54,055 nucleotides of DNA, taken from positions 1 to 54,055 of the IMG/VR virus record IMGVR_UViG_3300017598_001815; one strand, given 5' to 3'. The notes under the pieces are model-generated. The model saw only the letters and a program-made list of their open reading frames with translations, was not told where the DNA came from and searched no databases. A program made the position numbers and the translations under genes. Shown here piece by piece: positions 2,601-52,951 of this stretch (positions are counted from its first letter, which is position 1; each line of letters starts with the position of its first letter). The stretch is from a virus.

Positions 2601-5600
2601 TCAGCTCAGGGTTGCACCGAGGGTGTGAATCCTCGGATAGGTCAATACGGTTCCGGTCAGCTCAGCCTTGTAGCGCACCTTGTTGCCCTGCGGATCGCTG
2701 AAGGTTCTGACCAGCGTGTATTCGGTCCAGTCTTCATCGATGGGCCGGGTATCGTCGATGGTCATGGCTTCCCATGTTTCACCGCCGTCATTGGAGGCGA
2801 ACCACTGAACACTGGTGCCGCTGGGGATATCCATTTGGGTGTAGACTTTGGTGGATTCCACACCCTGTGTCAGTTCGTTCTCACGGGTCAGATAGGTTCC
2901 TGCGGTGTTGTTAAGGTAGCCGATCAGGTTGACGTCCCGGAAGTTGAGCGCCGGAGTGTCGTTACCCATGCCGGTGCTGAAGCGCACCCGCACCAAAACG
3001 CCATTCGCCAGATTGGGCAGACGTTCTTCCTCAGCCGGAACCACGGCATCCCATGTCTGGCCGCCATCGGTGGAGTATTCCCAGATGAGATGGGTGCCTT
3101 CCGGGATGGCTGAGTATTCATCGATGTTCAGATCAGAGAACTGCACACCGCTAATCAGCTGGAACTGGACCGTGCCTTCATTCTCGAACTCATAGCCATA
3201 GAGTTTCATGGTGAGGTCGGAACCGTTGAGCGGAGTCCAGGTCTCGGCATTGGAGCTTTCCAGAAGCACACCTTCAGCATAGGTCTGTCGGGTGATGATG
3301 CCCTGACGACCGGTTTTTCCGAGGGTAGCGGTGCGCACCTTGTAATTGGTGCTGTTGGTCAGCAGAACCACCGCATAGCTGGTATTGGCTTCCGCATAGA
3401 ACGGGTCGTCGAAGCTGATCTTGGTTTCACCGCCGAGATTGATTTCAGACGGCGCGATCACCTTTTCGGCAAAGATGGTGTCATTGGGCAATCCGGTGGT
3501 AACGCCGCGAATCTGAACTGTTACCGGAATGGAGGCATCCCGCTCGGTGAACTGAATACCCACTGCCGTCAACACCCGGTTTTCCGTGAAACTGAAGGTC
3601 TGGGCCAGCGGATCGCGGCGGACAAAGATGGTGCGGGTTCTCCAGACGGTACGCACCACCGGCACACGAACGATGCGGGTAATGATATTGGTCTGAATAA
3701 AACGCTGAATACGAGTGATCACCAGCGGATCATTGATCTGCAGGCTGGTCCGGGCGGTATACTGGCCATCGGCCATCTCCACGATACGGTTGCCGTTGCG
3801 GGCTTGCGTCGGCACCGTAAATGAGGCACTCACACGTCCGGCATCGTCGCTGACCAGATTGCTGGCCATGACTCGCCCGTCACAGCGCAGGACAATACCA
3901 GTGCGATCCGGGGTGAAGTTGATGCCTGTCACGGCGATGCCGGTCTGACCACGGCGACCGATATTGGGCGTGACCTGCAGCATGGCAGGCGGCTTTTCAA
4001 AGACCGCATACGGGTTGATGTTGCGCTCCTCGGACCAGTCATTCTGTTCGAGTACGACCTGTTCCGCGCCCGGCAAGAGCGCCAGACTGCCAAAGAAGCT
4101 GGCATCGCTGCTGCCAAGATCCACATCGAGCGGATTGGAAATGGCCGAACGATCCGGAGAGGCAAACTTGCCCAGTTCGTTTACCCGGGCATCCCACTCG
4201 GCGTGATAGATGTCCGACTGGGCCGTATTGGAGAAGTCATCCGAGTAGATGCCTTTCTTGGACTGAGCGTCGCGGTTTTGCAGCTCGTTGTTCATCTGAT
4301 ACTGGGCATCGTTGTATTTCAGGTCCTCCACATCTTTGATGATGTCATGGATCTGATCCATAGTGATGCGGGTGAGCCCGAAATTGCGAATGGTCATATC
4401 GGTGGAGTTGGGCGGACAGTCGATGCTGCACATTCCAAGTGTATTTTCCGGAACAATCGGCAGTTTTGGGAAATCCGCTGGAGCGCCTTCGAGTCGCTTG
4501 ATCTCCCGGGTGGTGGCGTAGATGATGTCCTTGCGTCCGAGATAATAATCATAGTCGATACTGCAATTGGAGCCGTTGACCGGTTCATCACCCAGTGCTC
4601 CGCGACCGAAGTTGACCACATTGAGATTACCCAGCTCGATCTGGGTCGTGGACATGGAAACCGCCGCCGAGCTGCTTGCCGGTGGATTGGATGCCACGGG
4701 TTCGTCCACCGCATCATCGATATAAGAGATGGCTTCGCTGCCCAGTTCCTTGATGCGCTGGAAGTCGGTTCTGGAACCGTTGGTCGTGGCCCGGTAAACC
4801 CGGTAGCCGTTGGCACCGTTGACCGGCAGCCAAGAAAGACGGTTCATCTCTCCGGCCAGAGTCATTCTCGAAAGCACACTGCCGGAGTTGAAGGCGGTCT
4901 CACCCGAGCCGTCGAAAGCGGTCACCACATAGTGATAGATCCCGGATACCGGATGGGCGGTAATGCCGAACCAACCGCCGTCCACATAATCCTCGCCTTT
5001 GATCATCTGCTTGGTGTAGGTCCAGCGCACGGTATAGGTGGTTCCGATGGCCGGTTCATTACCGGAGCCAATCCAGTCCACATGGTTCCCGGATTGCTGC
5101 CAGTCGATGCCTTCCTGAAAAATGGTGGCACCCTGACTGACCTCCAGAATATCCACGACCGGATTGGGATCGAGCAGATCCTCACCGCCGCCGACCGAGC
5201 CACGGGTCACGTTGGCGGTCATTTCCACAATGGCTTCCACCTGCGTGGTCTCTTTGAGTGGCGTGGAGTTGACCGGATAACGGCGCTGGCTGATGTTGTA
5301 GGTCTTCTGTTCACCACGCACGGACTTGATAGCCACCGACTTGGGAACCAGCGTTGAGGTGGGCAGATCCCGCTGATGCCGGAATCCCTGAATGTAGGCT
5401 CTGCCCGCATTGGTGATCACCTCGACATCGGTATCATCCACCGAACCGATAAAGCTGTCGAAACCGTCCACCAGATAGCTGCCCGCCTGATCGAAGGTCC
5501 GCTCGGCAAGATTCTGCAACAGCGAATTGAGTCCTTCGGCGGCGGCAAAGGAGAGCTGATCTTCGGTAATGGAGGAAACCGTTATCCGGCTGCCGGGGAG

Positions 5601-48549: not shown

Positions 48550-49134
48550 TCAGAGGTATTCTTCCAATCCGCCATCCCGGAAAGCGTCCCTCAGTTTGGT
48601 CAGTGTTCCGTAGAGAGTGCTGCGCGGCACACCCATCTCCCGTGCAATTTCAGCCATGTTGCTCGATTGCAGTTTTTCGCATAGCTCCTGCAGATCTTCC
48701 GGCAGTCCAGCAATGACCCGTTCGACATCGAAGCGGATATCGTTTTGCCGTTGCTCGATTGTTTCCTTGCCGTGATGTCCCATAAGTCCATCACTGGAAA
48801 CCTGTTCGATGCGCTCAGTGGAATCGTTGTCCCCGCCGGGAATAGGGTCGTTGAGAGTGTTGAAGCATTTGCGCCAGTCTCTGCATTGAGCGAAGCGGGC
48901 TTCAAGAATGGTTGAAATCCGCCGCTCCACGATGCGGGTCATGAAGGTTGTTTTCTTCCCTTTGGCAGGGTTGAAGTGCTTCATTCTGCCCAACAGGTCG
49001 ATCATCAGTTCCTGCTCAAGATCCTGTCGATCGTCTTCTGTCAGCCCTGCTTTACCCACCAGTTGCCTTGCTTTGTGCCGAATAAGATCTGCGGCATATC
49101 CATCGATGCCTTCATAAGAATTTCGATAAAACAT
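48550..49134 (-). CDS. Phage-encoded sigma-70 family (ECF-like) factor
   Basis: This 194-aa protein has region 2 (LTEDDRQDLEQELMIDLLGRMKHFNPAKGKKTTFMTRIVERRISTILEAR, ~31-80) and region 4 (VIAGLPEDLQELCEKLQSSNMAEIAREMGVPRSTLYGTLTKLRDAF, ~140-185, with a helix-turn-helix). The two are joined by a linker, the size and layout of ECF sigma factors. It would redirect host RNA polymerase to phage promoters. The natural candidates are the ten P elements in this window. Its own ATG is preceded by a hairpin that buries the AGGAGG ribosome binding site and by a structured leader (49135-49326). No P element precedes it. Confidence 0.85.
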   Translation of the reverse strand: MFYRNSYEGIDGYAADLIRHKARQLVGKAGLTEDDRQDLEQELMIDLLGRMKHFNPAKGKKTTFMTRIVERRISTILEARFAQCRDWRKCFNTLNDPIPGGDNDSTERIEQVSSDGLMGHHGKETIEQRQNDIRFDVERVIAGLPEDLQELCEKLQSSNMAEIAREMGVPRSTLYGTLTKLRDAFRDGGLEEYL

Positions 49135-49145
49135 TTGGTCCTCCT

Positions 49146-49326
49146 CGGAGCGAGGAGGAGCACCGCGTGGGTGTCGGCACGGGCCTTAAACAGAGGAAGG
49201 ATCTGATTCAACAAGCGGAGTGTCGCAGGTTCGCCTTTTCTGCCACCTGCCGTGCTATTAAACACACGGTCAGGTTTGGCTCGGCGACACCCACAACAGC
49301 CTCCGCCTTGCGTCCAGCTTGTTGTC
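49146..49326 (-). ncRNA. Structured leader of the sigma-factor gene (possible RNA switch)
   Basis: Leftward leader RNA. Strand b (GTGGGTGTCG, 49294-49285) pairs perfectly with its complement at 49176-49167. Strand a (49310-49301) pairs with 49220-49212 (CTCCGCTTG, one bulge). The order a, b, a', b' is a pseudoknot. Strand b (GTGTCGC part, 49290-49284) can instead pair with GCGACAC at 49226-49220, next to a', giving one long hairpin. Just before the ATG, TCCTCCTCG-CTC-CGAGGAGGA forms a hairpin that hides the ribosome binding site. An inner hairpin (GCAGGT/ACCTGC) lies at 49225-49250. No known riboswitch class is recognised. A 39-nt part recurs at 52867-52905. Confidence 0.55.
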
Positions 49327-49349
49327 GAAGTGTCTAAATTATCAGTTTG

Positions 49350-49676
49350 TTATGCTGCCCGTTCCTCGATGCGGATCAGGAATGGCAGCCCATGCTTGAT
49401 TTCAAGATGACGGATGATTCCATCACCCATGCCAGTCAGGTGTTCGATAAGAGCGAGTACTTCCTGTTTCAGGGTGAAGTCATCCTTGGCCAGCTCCGGA
49501 CGGTTACCGTTCTGGCCGCCCAGTTTGATTTCACGCTCGATGATGGTGTCTGCGGTGAGTTCGGGATTTCCGCTCACAACCGGTATGTTGGAAATGCGCC
49601 CGAAGTTGATTTGCTGCATCAGCTCGATGAGCTTTTGCTGCGGTTCGTTTAGTTCTGTCTTCTTGATCTGGTTCAT
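49350..49676 (-). CDS. Hypothetical protein upstream of sigma factor
   Basis: This 108-aa protein has AAAGGAGG before the ATG. It is predicted helical (LNEPQQKLIELMQQINFGRI; LKQEVLALIEHLTGMGDGIIRHLEIKHGLPFLIRIEE). No family is recognised. It lies upstream of the sigma gene and may share a transcript. The gap contains the switch-like leader. The transcript's own upstream region has operator-like palindromes and a long hairpin. Confidence 0.65.
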   Translation of the reverse strand: MNQIKKTELNEPQQKLIELMQQINFGRISNIPVVSGNPELTADTIIEREIKLGGQNGNRPELAKDDFTLKQEVLALIEHLTGMGDGIIRHLEIKHGLPFLIRIEERAA

Positions 49677-49946
49677 GCCGAACCTCCTTTGTTAAGGACC
49701 TCCCGGAAGACAGGTCCGGCATGATTTCTCCGGGTGAGGTCGTGAACGATTTTCTGTTCACCAGACCTGTCACCCTTCTTTGGCGAAATTTCGTTGGACC
49801 ACTGAAATTTCACCCGATGCGGATGCACTTGGATTGGCTAACGCACTGAATTTGAGGGGGATTTGATGAAATGAGGCGGAGAAAAATTTCTTAACTTTTT
49901 TTGCCTGCCCTCAGTGAAATTTCGTTGGTCTCACTCGTCAGGGCAT
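49677..49946 (-). promoter_or_regulatory. Regulatory region with GAAATTTC palindromes and two hairpins
   Basis: There is no gene here. Three copies of the 8-bp palindrome GAAATTTC stand at 49785-49792, 49804-49811 and 49916-49923. The first and third are part of a longer GAAATTTCGTTGG. These look like operators of a repressor, perhaps the HTH protein at 50000-50419. A long imperfect hairpin (GGGTGA..GGTC..GTGAAC with GTTCAC..GACC..TCACCC) lies at 49733-49775. Another (TGCCCT/AGGGCA with AGTGA/TCACT inside) lies at 49906-49945. The promoter for the 108-aa and sigma genes must be near, but I see no good -35/-10. Confidence 0.5.
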
Positions 49947-49999: not shown

Positions 50000-50419
50000 T
50001 CAGCAGAATCCAAAGAACGTTCGCTGCTCGCTCCAGTCGAGTGGGAATGTTTTCACCAGCTTTGACAGGGATAATCCGCTGGGCTCTTCACCGTTAATGA
50101 TGGCTTCGATAATGTCCGGGGCGAGAGTGGTCAGTTTCAGTGTTCGGGCGACATAGGATGAATCCACATCGAGATCCCTTGCCAGCTCGCTGATGGACTT
50201 TATCTCGCCGCTCTCGAGGATGTCCGCCCATGAAAGGGCTCTGGCCAGCGACTGGACAATGGCCGTTTGAACGGTTTCCGGCATGCCTTCGTTTTCACCG
50301 TCCAGCGTGTCCGGCGTGAACACCATTTTGCGGCCACGCATTCTTCGGATGAACATGGGGACATGGATGTGCAGGTTCCCGCTGTCTGATAGTTTGATAG
50401 TTGGTTTGATCTTTTTCAT
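50000..50419 (-). CDS. HTH protein of the recombinase trio (ParB/resolvase-associated type)
   Basis: This 139-aa protein has a helix-turn-helix in the middle (IKSISELARDLDVDSSYVARTLKLTTLAPDIIEAIINGEEPSGLSLSKL, ~70-125) and a C-terminus with WSEQRTFFGFC. Such proteins often follow DUF2924 and serine recombinases in many bacteria and prophages. They are thought to bind DNA at or near the recombination site or promoter. The start is coupled to the recombinase stop (TGATG). It is the best candidate for binding the GAAATTTC palindromes downstream. Confidence 0.85.
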   Translation of the reverse strand: MKKIKPTIKLSDSGNLHIHVPMFIRRMRGRKMVFTPDTLDGENEGMPETVQTAIVQSLARALSWADILESGEIKSISELARDLDVDSSYVARTLKLTTLAPDIIEAIINGEEPSGLSLSKLVKTFPLDWSEQRTFFGFC

Positions 50420-52002
50420 CAGCTGTTACTCCTTTCCCTGACTTCACAAGCCAGACCGGCCAGTTCGGTGACAAGGTTTGTGAGGCCGTTGGTTTTCAGC
50501 TCCATGTCGATTCCTGTTTCCCGTATCTCGATGGTTTCCACCAGTAGCTGGATCAGCCGATTGCGCTCGAGGGGGAACAGGTCTTCCCAGAAGGTTTCCA
50601 CGCTCTGGAATGCTTCCGATACATCACCCTCGGAAATCTGCTCAGTATCGATCACCCTCAACCGAGCCGATACATTGGTGAGCTGTTTGGTCAAATCGAC
50701 GGCCTGCTGGTTGACCAAGGGGAGTCGGCTGTTCCGGTCGGGATCGTCGTTGTCGGGCGACATCAGCTTCAAGGCTTCCTGACGAACACCTTTCAGGGAT
50801 TGTTCAATTTCCTTTTTCTGGACCAGCAGGCGTTCGCGCTCTTCGGCCTCGATATCTCTGGCGGCAAAGTAGGTCTTAGCCACCAAGGTCGGGGTCCTGA
50901 ATACAGCTCCCAGCTGATCAAGCACCACCGACTCGATGTCTCCGGCAGGAACCCGCTTCAAAGGGCATCGGCTGACGGCGCGTTTAGTATCCTTTTCACA
51001 GATATAATAGGAGTAGCGCCGGTCACCTTTGTTGGTATAGGTGATACCCATGGCACTGTCGCAGTGGCCGCATCGGATTACACCGCTCAGGGGTGAGACC
51101 ATTTTCACCCGGGCCTTGCTCATCTTGGTTCGATTGTTTTCCGAGAGCAGCGCCTGAACCTTGTCCCAAGTGTTTTGATCGATCAGGGCTTCATGCTCAG
51201 CCGGGTAATTGTTCCCTTTGTAGGCAATCTCTCCGATGTAAAGCCTGTTATTGAGAAGGCGGTAGATCTGAGCCGTGTTCCATTCAGTACCGACCCGTTC
51301 TTTTCCTTTCTTGGTGGTCCATGACTTGGTTTTGTATCCCTGCTCATTGAGTTCCTGCGCCACCTTCTTGGCTGATCCCACCTGCGTGTATCGCCTGAAT
51401 ATGAGTTTTATCAGTGGGGCTTCACTCTGGTTGATCAGCAGCTTTTTGTTTTCCCGGTCCACGTCATAGCCGAGTACCGCAGGTCCGCCGCAGTATTTCC
51501 CCCGGCGTTTTGCGGCGGCCACCTTGTCCCGGATACGCTCGCCGATGACCTCGCGCTCATACTGAGCAAAGGTGATCAGGATGCCCAGAAACATGCGGCC
51601 TGTCGGATCAGTGGTGCTGAAGTGTTGCGTGACGGATACAAAGCTCACTTCCTTTTCGTTGAAGACCTCGATCATCTTCATGAAGTCCAGCAGGGAGCGA
51701 GATAATCGGTCGATCTTGTACACAACAATGACATCAATCTTACCGGCATCGATATCAGCCAGCAGTCTTTGCAGGGCCGGACGTTCCATGGTCCCACCAG
51801 AAAATCCGCCATCATCATAGCGATATGGAATGGCTCTCCAGCCTTGAAGTTTTTGGCTCTCTATATACGCCTCACCAGCTTCTCTTTGGGCATCGAGTGA
51901 ATTGAATTCCTGTTCCAAGCCTTCTTCGTGGCTCTTTCTGGTGTAGATCGCACACCTGAGCGTTTTGCGTTGGCCGTTCTGTGTATTGGTATTGTTAAGC
52001 AT
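50419..52002 (-). CDS. Large serine recombinase (site-specific integrase)
   Basis: This 527-aa protein starts at MLNNTNTQNG (52002, GGGAGG upstream). It has a resolvase domain with catalytic Ser in AIYTRKSHEEG (~24) and SLDAQREAGEAYIESQ, GGFSGGTMERPALQRLL, VYKIDRLSRSLLDFMKM and TDPTGRMFLGILITFAQYEREVIGERIRDKV. A recombinase domain (AVLGYDVDRENKKLLI..) and a zinc ribbon (CGHCDSAMGITYTNKGDRRYSYYICEKDTKRAVSRC) follow, with a coiled coil in the C-terminal half. Such enzymes integrate and excise phage DNA in one direction. With the tyrosine recombinase, this phage has two recombinase systems. It is likely the true integrase. Confidence 0.93.
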   Translation of the reverse strand: MLNNTNTQNGQRKTLRCAIYTRKSHEEGLEQEFNSLDAQREAGEAYIESQKLQGWRAIPYRYDDGGFSGGTMERPALQRLLADIDAGKIDVIVVYKIDRLSRSLLDFMKMIEVFNEKEVSFVSVTQHFSTTDPTGRMFLGILITFAQYEREVIGERIRDKVAAAKRRGKYCGGPAVLGYDVDRENKKLLINQSEAPLIKLIFRRYTQVGSAKKVAQELNEQGYKTKSWTTKKGKERVGTEWNTAQIYRLLNNRLYIGEIAYKGNNYPAEHEALIDQNTWDKVQALLSENNRTKMSKARVKMVSPLSGVIRCGHCDSAMGITYTNKGDRRYSYYICEKDTKRAVSRCPLKRVPAGDIESVVLDQLGAVFRTPTLVAKTYFAARDIEAEERERLLVQKKEIEQSLKGVRQEALKLMSPDNDDPDRNSRLPLVNQQAVDLTKQLTNVSARLRVIDTEQISEGDVSEAFQSVETFWEDLFPLERNRLIQLLVETIEIRETGIDMELKTNGLTNLVTELAGLACEVRERSNS

Positions 52003-52501
52003 TCGGACCACCTCCCTTTTTTCTGTAACTGTTCTTCAGGCCGAAAAAGATCTTGCCGTTCCAGCGGGTGCCTGTGATTTCCCTCGCTATGGCACTCAGA
52101 GATCTGAAGATGCGGCCGTCGTATTCAAAGCCGCTTTCCCGGGCGATCACTTCATAGCGATGGTCGTTCCAGATCCGGACAAACCGGGTACCCGGCAGGA
52201 TGGCCTCCTGTGATTTTCGTTCCTCCGGGATCTTGCGTATGACCGTTGCCACCGGATCAGTCTCGGCAACCTTCTTCAGGTGGGACTTGGCCTGTTCCGA
52301 CAGACCGCCGTAAAAGAGCTCCTGAATCCGGTGCGCCAGCCGTTTAACCAGAAACTGTTTTTTGTACTGGGGTGGCTCGGTTCCATAAAGGTCCAGCCAT
52401 TTCTCTCTAAGCTGATCAAGGCTCATACTCTGGAGCGTTGCCAGCTGCCTCAACACTGAGGTCTTGGTCGGCTCCGTTTTTTTGTTTTTCAAGTCATTCA
52501 T
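51995..52501 (-). CDS. DUF2924 protein
   Basis: This 168-aa protein has a C-terminal part typical of DUF2924: VRIWNDHRYEVIARESGFEYDGRIFRSLSAIAREITGTRWNGKIFFGLK. The N-terminal ~100 residues are helical. The family is always or often found beside serine recombinases. Its role (perhaps an accessory in integration) is not established. The ATG at 52501 has AAGGAG six bases upstream. The end overlaps the recombinase start by 8 bp. Confidence 0.9.
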   Translation of the reverse strand: MNDLKNKKTEPTKTSVLRQLATLQSMSLDQLREKWLDLYGTEPPQYKKQFLVKRLAHRIQELFYGGLSEQAKSHLKKVAETDPVATVIRKIPEERKSQEAILPGTRFVRIWNDHRYEVIARESGFEYDGRIFRSLSAIAREITGTRWNGKIFFGLKNSYRKKGGGPNA

Positions 52502-52521
52502 TTTCAACTCCTTATGTTTGT

Positions 52522-52785
52522 TTACAGGACTCGGTTGTCATGAATGACGCTCTTTCTGGCAGAAGAATCAAGTCCTTCTCCGAAGGTTCCGGAAGAATCT
52601 GCAACATTCTTTAAGTTATTGGCATTATTGGCCTTACGATACCGGCTCCTGAGGGCGGCAATGGCCAGAATGGCTGCAATGGCATCCAGCCGCTGCTCCG
52701 GGTTAATGCCTTCAGCATCCGGCAATTGGGCGTCGGTCAACTGGTTTGAGTAAGGGTTTTCGGGTGCTAATTCCACATCAAGCAT
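52522..52785 (-). CDS. Small hypothetical protein, first gene of the recombinase operon
   Basis: This 87-aa protein starts at MLDVELAPENP (52785, CGGAGG upstream). A helical segment (QRLDAIAAILAIAALRSRYRKANNANNLKNV, ~33-63) has a hydrophobic face and basic end. No family is recognised. It is led by promoter P1 and a structured leader, so its expression may be RNA-controlled. A longer frame (52875) would overlap that leader. Confidence 0.7.
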   Translation of the reverse strand: MLDVELAPENPYSNQLTDAQLPDAEGINPEQRLDAIAAILAIAALRSRYRKANNANNLKNVADSSGTFGEGLDSSARKSVIHDNRVL

Positions 52786-52824
52786 AATGGCCTCCGTTGG
52801 GCCGGTGCCGATGAGGGAAGCTGC

Positions 52825-52905
52825 GGGTGCCAAAAACAAAAGGCGGTTGGGATGCGCGTTTTTCAGCACCCACAACCGCCTCTGCCTGGCATCCGGCCAA
52901 TTGTC
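52825..52905 (-). ncRNA. Structured leader RNA after promoter P1
   Basis: Leftward RNA. AGGCGGTTG (52881-52873) pairs perfectly with CAACCGCCT (52849-52841). The next segment GGGTGC (52871-52866) pairs with GCACCC (52830-52825). Order a, b, a', b' gives a pseudoknot. The 39 nt at 52905-52867 are 31/39 identical to 49326-49288 in the sigma leader, including all of strand a's core and strand b's start. The ribosome binding site of the next gene (GGAGG) is not obviously hidden here. Confidence 0.5.
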
Positions 52906-52951
52906 TGGTTTCTAACTCATGTCCGAGACGAACCCTCGGAACTTTCGGAGG

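Follow-up and report, generated by a model that had tools for sequence, protein, structure and literature searches.

Two copies of a structured leader RNA with competing folds, accompanied by a small orphan gene: a probable control switch of a temperate phage group

Virus record IMGVR_UViG_3300017598_001815 raises the question of whether the RNA leader of its sigma-factor gene works as a switch and, if so, what it would control. The window, i.e., the whole stretch of DNA analysed, comprises the 54,055 bp of this record and encodes a serine recombinase, a DUF2924 protein, an exonuclease, Sak4, a RecD-like helicase, a primase, a terminase, a portal protein, a methyltransferase, and tail proteins. 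Close relatives were found in genomes of Desulfatitalea, Desulfobulbus, Desulfosarcina, Desulforhopalus, and Ectothiorhodospira. The sigma-70-family protein (194 aa; 48550-49134, on the minus strand, as are all genes and RNA features located below) was recognized by Pfam Sigma70_r2 (E 1.9e-6) and PHROG 1740 (E 1.4e-16). Its gene is the second of a leftward run that opens with a gene of 108 aa (49350-49676), and the first copy of the RNA element (copy 1; 49135-49331) spans the gap from the stop codon of the 108-aa gene to the sigma start, so that copy 1 is intercistronic. A preliminary description of this leader, made from the window itself, had proposed a bistable structure with a hidden ribosome binding site on a master regulator; the basis for the putative rank of "master regulator" is homology to sigma-70 region 2 and position in the operon only.

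Strong terminators close both the sigma operon and the integrase operon, and a terminator-like site (39850-39823) lies directly past the primase gene. Together with a gap of about 500 nt after the primase, this site (region 39879-39326) probably marks the boundary between early and late operons, at which a sigma-dependent late promoter could sit. Several operator-like palindromes of the GAAATTTC type were noted at 49780-49930 (minus strand), between the terminator of the integrase operon and the 108-aa gene; similar palindromes occur shortly upstream of sigma in phages without the RNA, e.g., L162, L167, L169, and L170.

Perfect Watson-Crick helices were searched for over 49326-49132 of the minus strand, and this returned, at the coordinates of the preliminary description, a 10-bp helix, here termed Pfar, between 49294-49285 and 49176-49167 (GTGGGTGTCG/CGACACCCAC), a local alternative of 7 bp between 49290-49284 and 49226-49220, and the 9-bp hairpin around AGGAGG. 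S1, the base of a local competing hairpin, is also present as described, between 49310-49301 and 49220-49212 (CAAGGCGGAG/CTCCGCTTG), with one bulge. Absent from that description were P1, in which ACAAC (49325-49321) pairs with GUUGU (49297-49293), the P2 hairpin that P1 encloses (CGC 49312-49310 with GCG 49306-49304; 4 bp in most relatives), the second RNA copy, and the upstream partner gene. A perfect helix of at least 10 bp was present in 4 of 400 dinucleotide shuffles of the window leader (~1%), and the leader folded better than shuffles (z -4.4), part of this margin coming from its Shine-Dalgarno (SD) hairpin. For the predicted structure, single-sequence evidence is modest and comparative evidence is decisive.

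Related leaders were collected by scans with the sigma protein and with an alignment, which yielded 19, 9, and 69 loci. Exact-word scans returned mostly chance matches, the first of them yielding L043, L067, and L148. The 48 unique leaders have their shared elements in a fixed order with near-constant spacing: ACCAGACAAC, the P2 hairpin (e.g., CCRC-GAA-GYGG), GGAGG, GUUGUGGGUGYCG, an apical hairpin, CAACGCCUCCGC, a variable linker, CGRCACCCAC, and the SD hairpin. Covariance models were built from 28 leaders (R1) and from 45 (R2) and recovered the window with E 6e-10 and E 2e-14, respectively. The element sits upstream of sigma homologs down to ~35% identity; it was present in 9 of the 297 surveyed genomes from the phylum that contains Desulfatitalea and in 2 of the 398 from the phylum of Ectothiorhodospira, and the sigma homologs of Wolbachia WO have neither the RNA nor the 108-aa gene. 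Searches of Rfam 15 with the window, copy 2, and relatives gave no match at gathering or relaxed thresholds, the sub-threshold noise being mostly microRNA families, which bears out the earlier remark that no known riboswitch class fits. By sequence comparison, the leader is confirmed as a structured-RNA family absent from Rfam 15, with the general traits of a cis-regulatory RNA, i.e., compensatory change in its helices and a conserved place before the sigma gene or the integrase operon. A second small hairpin of the GGGG...CCCC type was seen in L149, L150, L165, and L202 approximately 40-80 nt upstream of the core, just past the 108-aa stop codon.

Covariation was assessed on two alignments, one of 28 leaders built by MAFFT blind to structure (A3) and one of 54 copies. 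In A3, the share of paired cells in P1, P2, and Pfar was 94.1%; double-change cells numbered 41, compared with 13.9 ± 3.3 in shuffled alignments and 0-3 for slid partners. The 54 copies were paired in 94.8% of cells, with 76 double-change cells against 18.0 ± 4.4 and 1-15 for slid partners, figures that lean towards the model because this alignment was fitted to it; the covariation in homologous phages that had been named as a check was thus found. Double-change counts are inflated by related sequences, and events were therefore counted on a tree, which gave 13 independent compensatory events among the 54 sequences. Pairing was kept in 6 of 6 double-change events of P1 (P 0.002; 4 of 4 on A3), in 4 of 5 of P2 (P 0.002; 3 of 3 on A3), where the third pair alternates between GC and AU, and in 3 of 3 of Pfar (P 0.08 alone). 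Pfar, the 10-bp helix proposed from the window, covaries in the family: 97.2% of its cells are paired among the 54 sequences, 83% of 54 single changes stay paired against 41% for random partners, and one of its pairs occurs as UA, CG, or AU, another as UA or CG. On A3, 76% of 38 single changes in S1 stayed paired (random partners, 41%), as did 62% of 45 in the extension of S1 (null, 41%), which has two compensations (P 0.027). A strict all-pairs scan (APC G-test with a tree-based null) found a P2 pair alone significant (E 0.025); the low power of this test was the reason for counting events. Combinations of G-U outnumbered those of A-C by 123 to 13, which identifies the leftward strand as the RNA. 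Among the partners of the core strand, the ACAAC of P1 has the best compensatory evidence; covariation in these alignments is strong for the 5' domain of P1 and P2 and for Pfar and supports more weakly the local hairpin that competes with both.

The 23-nt core strand consists of the 5' strand of S1, GUUGU, and GGGUGYCG. In fold A, GUUGU would pair with the 5' ACAAC (P1, enclosing P2) and the adjoining GGGUGYCG would form Pfar with the far strand; fold B would take up these core bases in one long local hairpin made of S1, its extension, and an apical P3. Because P1 and Pfar share bases with the local hairpin (and, in copy 1, P2 shares bases with S1), folds A and B exclude each other. Across the family, the core strand GUUGUGGGUGYCG can pair with only one of its several partners at a time, and to this extent the idea of a bistable leader holds, but the exact 7-bp partner proposed for it belongs to the window lineage: other lineages use a wobble-rich strand (e.g., ACUCGCA), and L021 has lost both the 7-bp alternative and the 3' strand of S1 while retaining Pfar and the SD hairpin. 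Both folds appear conserved in the alignments, fold A strongly and fold B more weakly, with pairing above the null and few double changes. The pseudoknot of S1 and Pfar that had also been suggested uses no base twice and fits the data, which do not single it out; it could be an intermediate or a final form. A nested energy model favoured fold B (median 7 kcal/mol), and such energies say little on the two folds because the pseudoknot lies outside the model and was not scored. Termination as an output of the whole family was rejected: TTTT follows S1 in 6 of 28 copy-1 leaders and is absent from copy 1 of the window. In the L021 leader (2713-3000), the SD hairpin is separated from the far strand by ~92 additional nt.

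The 108-aa gene directly upstream of copy 1 belongs to an orphan family, and its predicted fold (AF2 pLDDT 85.5) had no match in PDB or BFVD. A search with the family profile found the gene in 79 of 84 RNA-positive loci (contig ends truncate the remaining five) and in 0 of 15 sigma loci that have no RNA. Gene and RNA were concordant in all 20 whole records searched. On the sigma tree, well-supported branches alone give at least five changes of RNA state and the best tree gives 10; in every case the 108-aa gene changes with the RNA (sign test on supported branches, 5:0, p 0.06). For instance, both are present in L197 and both are missing from L194 and L213, which are closely related sisters of it. 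Tight linkage of the two could account for part of this co-occurrence. The 108-aa proteins are not consistently basic, with net charges of -6 to +11.

The second RNA copy (copy 2; 52792-52909; R1 E 1.8e-6, R2 E 1.4e-13) is the leader of an operon (genes at 50419-52785) of an 87-aa gene (52522-52785; homologs of 69-88 aa lie beside DUF2924 in other loci), a DUF2924 gene (51995-52507), and the serine recombinase/integrase gene (50419-52011). Pfar of copy 2, as aligned by R1, pairs 52873-52866 with 52830-52823. The competing hairpin (52880-52866/52855-52842; 14 bp with one bulge) is followed by TTTTGTTTTT and has the form of an intrinsic terminator (52880-52832 in all); terminator-type hairpins of copy 2 were also found in L349, L352, and L394-L399. 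Distant phages, as well as related host genomes, also have a second copy ahead of the homologous operon. Some lineages have the integrase cassette in the opposite orientation with respect to sigma. The flanks immediately upstream of copy 2 in L362 and L363 resemble mutual inversions (TTTGAAACCGGAC versus GTCCGGTTCAAG), which suggests either inversion by the recombinase or an att site next to this copy.

Taken together, the favoured reading, to which we assign a probability of about 0.6, is a two-part phage control module in which the 108-aa protein and a bistable leader RNA in two copies gate the expression of sigma and integrase. Comparison across phages shows the RNA family with P1, P2, and Pfar, a recurring SD hairpin, two copies per phage, and strict co-occurrence with the 108-aa gene. 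We infer that the RNA passes between folds A and B inside the cell according to some signal; the factor that binds it and dictates the fold would be the 108-aa protein or one linked to it. Where a U-tract follows, as in copy 2 of the window lineage and a minority of the copy-1 leaders, fold B would act as a terminator, and the SD site of the controlled gene would be kept in a hairpin of its own beside the far strand. As output, either ribosomes would gain access to the sigma and integrase operons or RNA polymerase would read through into them, and early expression and integration would thereby be matched to the state of infection. Control that acts locally on the following gene, through ribosome access and, in certain copies, through termination, fits the SD hairpins and the U-tracts.

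The hidden ribosome site of the preliminary description is well founded: AGGAGG lies within a hairpin TCCTCCTCG-CTC-CGAGGAGGA of 9 bp (49159-49151/49147-49139), and a hairpin of 5-9 bp with the SD in its 3' arm recurs in 46 of the 48 unique leaders with sequences that differ between lineages. Such hairpins near the SD are also present in most copy-2 leaders. As in a thermosensor, the SD is held in a hairpin, with a GC-rich stem of 8-9 bp. These hairpins would suit a purely translational leader, thermosensor-like or with a standby site, that needs no dedicated protein; fold B would leave the linker and the far strand free as a standby site, and fold A would remove it. This reading is unlikely, while deserving serious attention: it explains neither the terminators found in copy 2 nor why the RNA and the 108-aa gene always occur together. 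RNA thermosensors of the rpoH and cIII type, which serve a sigma or a phage regulator gene, likewise lock the SD in a hairpin, but here a conserved element of 130-200 nt, strand competition, and a co-occurring protein gene are added. The strands of the SD hairpin are shared with none of the competing strands. L194 and L213, which have neither RNA nor 108-aa gene, carry an SD hairpin (CTGTCCT-CCGGCCC-AGGACAG, with GGCC in the loop) ~80 nt upstream of position 2001, so this hairpin can persist on its own without the upstream element. The loop of the SD hairpin is usually GGCC and the P2 region has a conserved (G/A)GCC, which makes a GGCC-GGCC kissing contact conceivable. In L392, a minimal copy 2 (approximately 42-145) consists of P1 (ACAGC/GCUGU) and P2 only, and the GUGG of its core could pair with the CCAC of the SD hairpin CUUCC-ACCC-GGAGG, possibly opening it directly; this is a single case.

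The main mechanistic rival to the local-control module, given that one copy heads each early operon, is processive antitermination of the nut or put kind, in which the RNA and the 108-aa protein would load on RNA polymerase and the terminators downstream in the sigma/replication and integrase operons would be read through. In lambda, the N gene and the nut site are paired. The likeness to lambda nut/N and HK022 put lies in two copies heading two early phage operons, with a small protein gene beside one of them; the intercistronic place of copy 1 right after that gene, the strict co-occurrence of protein and RNA, and the strong terminators at the ends of both operons all agree with it. However, the conserved SD hairpin and a far helix by the start codon point to local control, and no conserved terminator lies just downstream of copy 1. 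The present element also differs from nut and put in its two alternative folds, and neither boxA/boxB nor the two-hairpin layout of put was noticed in it, in an informal comparison. We consider antitermination rather doubtful as the mechanism.

A metabolite-sensing riboswitch of an undescribed class is improbable. The compact conserved core, its fixed spacing, the mutually exclusive folds, and the conserved unpaired segments ACCAGA and CYGG would be in keeping with one, but sigma and integrase genes point to no metabolite and the occurrence of the RNA is tied to a phage protein. Still less credence is given to leader-peptide attenuation, in which GGAGG with GUG, UUG, or AUG in the core would open a short ORF and the fold would depend on its translation: GGAGG-N5-GUG is present in most members, and group 3 has AUG-UGG-GUG-UCG-CCG-UAA, but the frames run from 4 to ~60 codons with no conserved peptide, and the start codon is lost in L210. 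An attenuator of the erm or trp type was rejected, the short upstream frames not being conserved. Chance complementarity, or inverted repeats acting in DNA as an operator or recombination site, is scarcely credible: a single 10-bp helix does arise in about 1% of shuffles and copy 2 does lie near the recombinase cassette, but the pairings covary across highly divergent phages and G-U is tolerated on one strand only.

Compared with known systems, the element works like an attenuator or a translational leader and belongs to no named family that could be compared. As in the terminator/antiterminator attenuators of bacterial leaders, one strand is common to two exclusive hairpins, and copy 2 has a textbook terminator; in contrast to them, copy 1 mostly has no U-tract, the far helix reaches past the terminator, and the SD is sequestered separately. 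With pseudoknot operators such as the leaders of T4 gene 32 and ribosomal protein S15, it shares a structured leader, a possible pseudoknot upstream of the start codon, and a phage regulator gene, whereas the protein suspected here is not the product of the controlled gene and a second, unrelated operon is also headed by the RNA. No description of the element was found in a literature search that covered few subscription papers.

Decisions of temperate phages are mostly explained by DNA-binding repressors, with antitermination in a few models. The element is probably a control switch of this temperate phage group. Tentatively, and against the odds as they stand, the fold-orphan protein and the two-copy bistable RNA may jointly set the expression of sigma and integrase as the lysis-lysogeny switch of widespread serine-integrase phages. 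The proposal is testable, as the alignment defines compensatory mutants and the 108-aa protein is named as the candidate trans-acting factor. If true, it would mean that phages of sulfate reducers, and of other proteobacteria, also decide through a circuit at the level of RNA.
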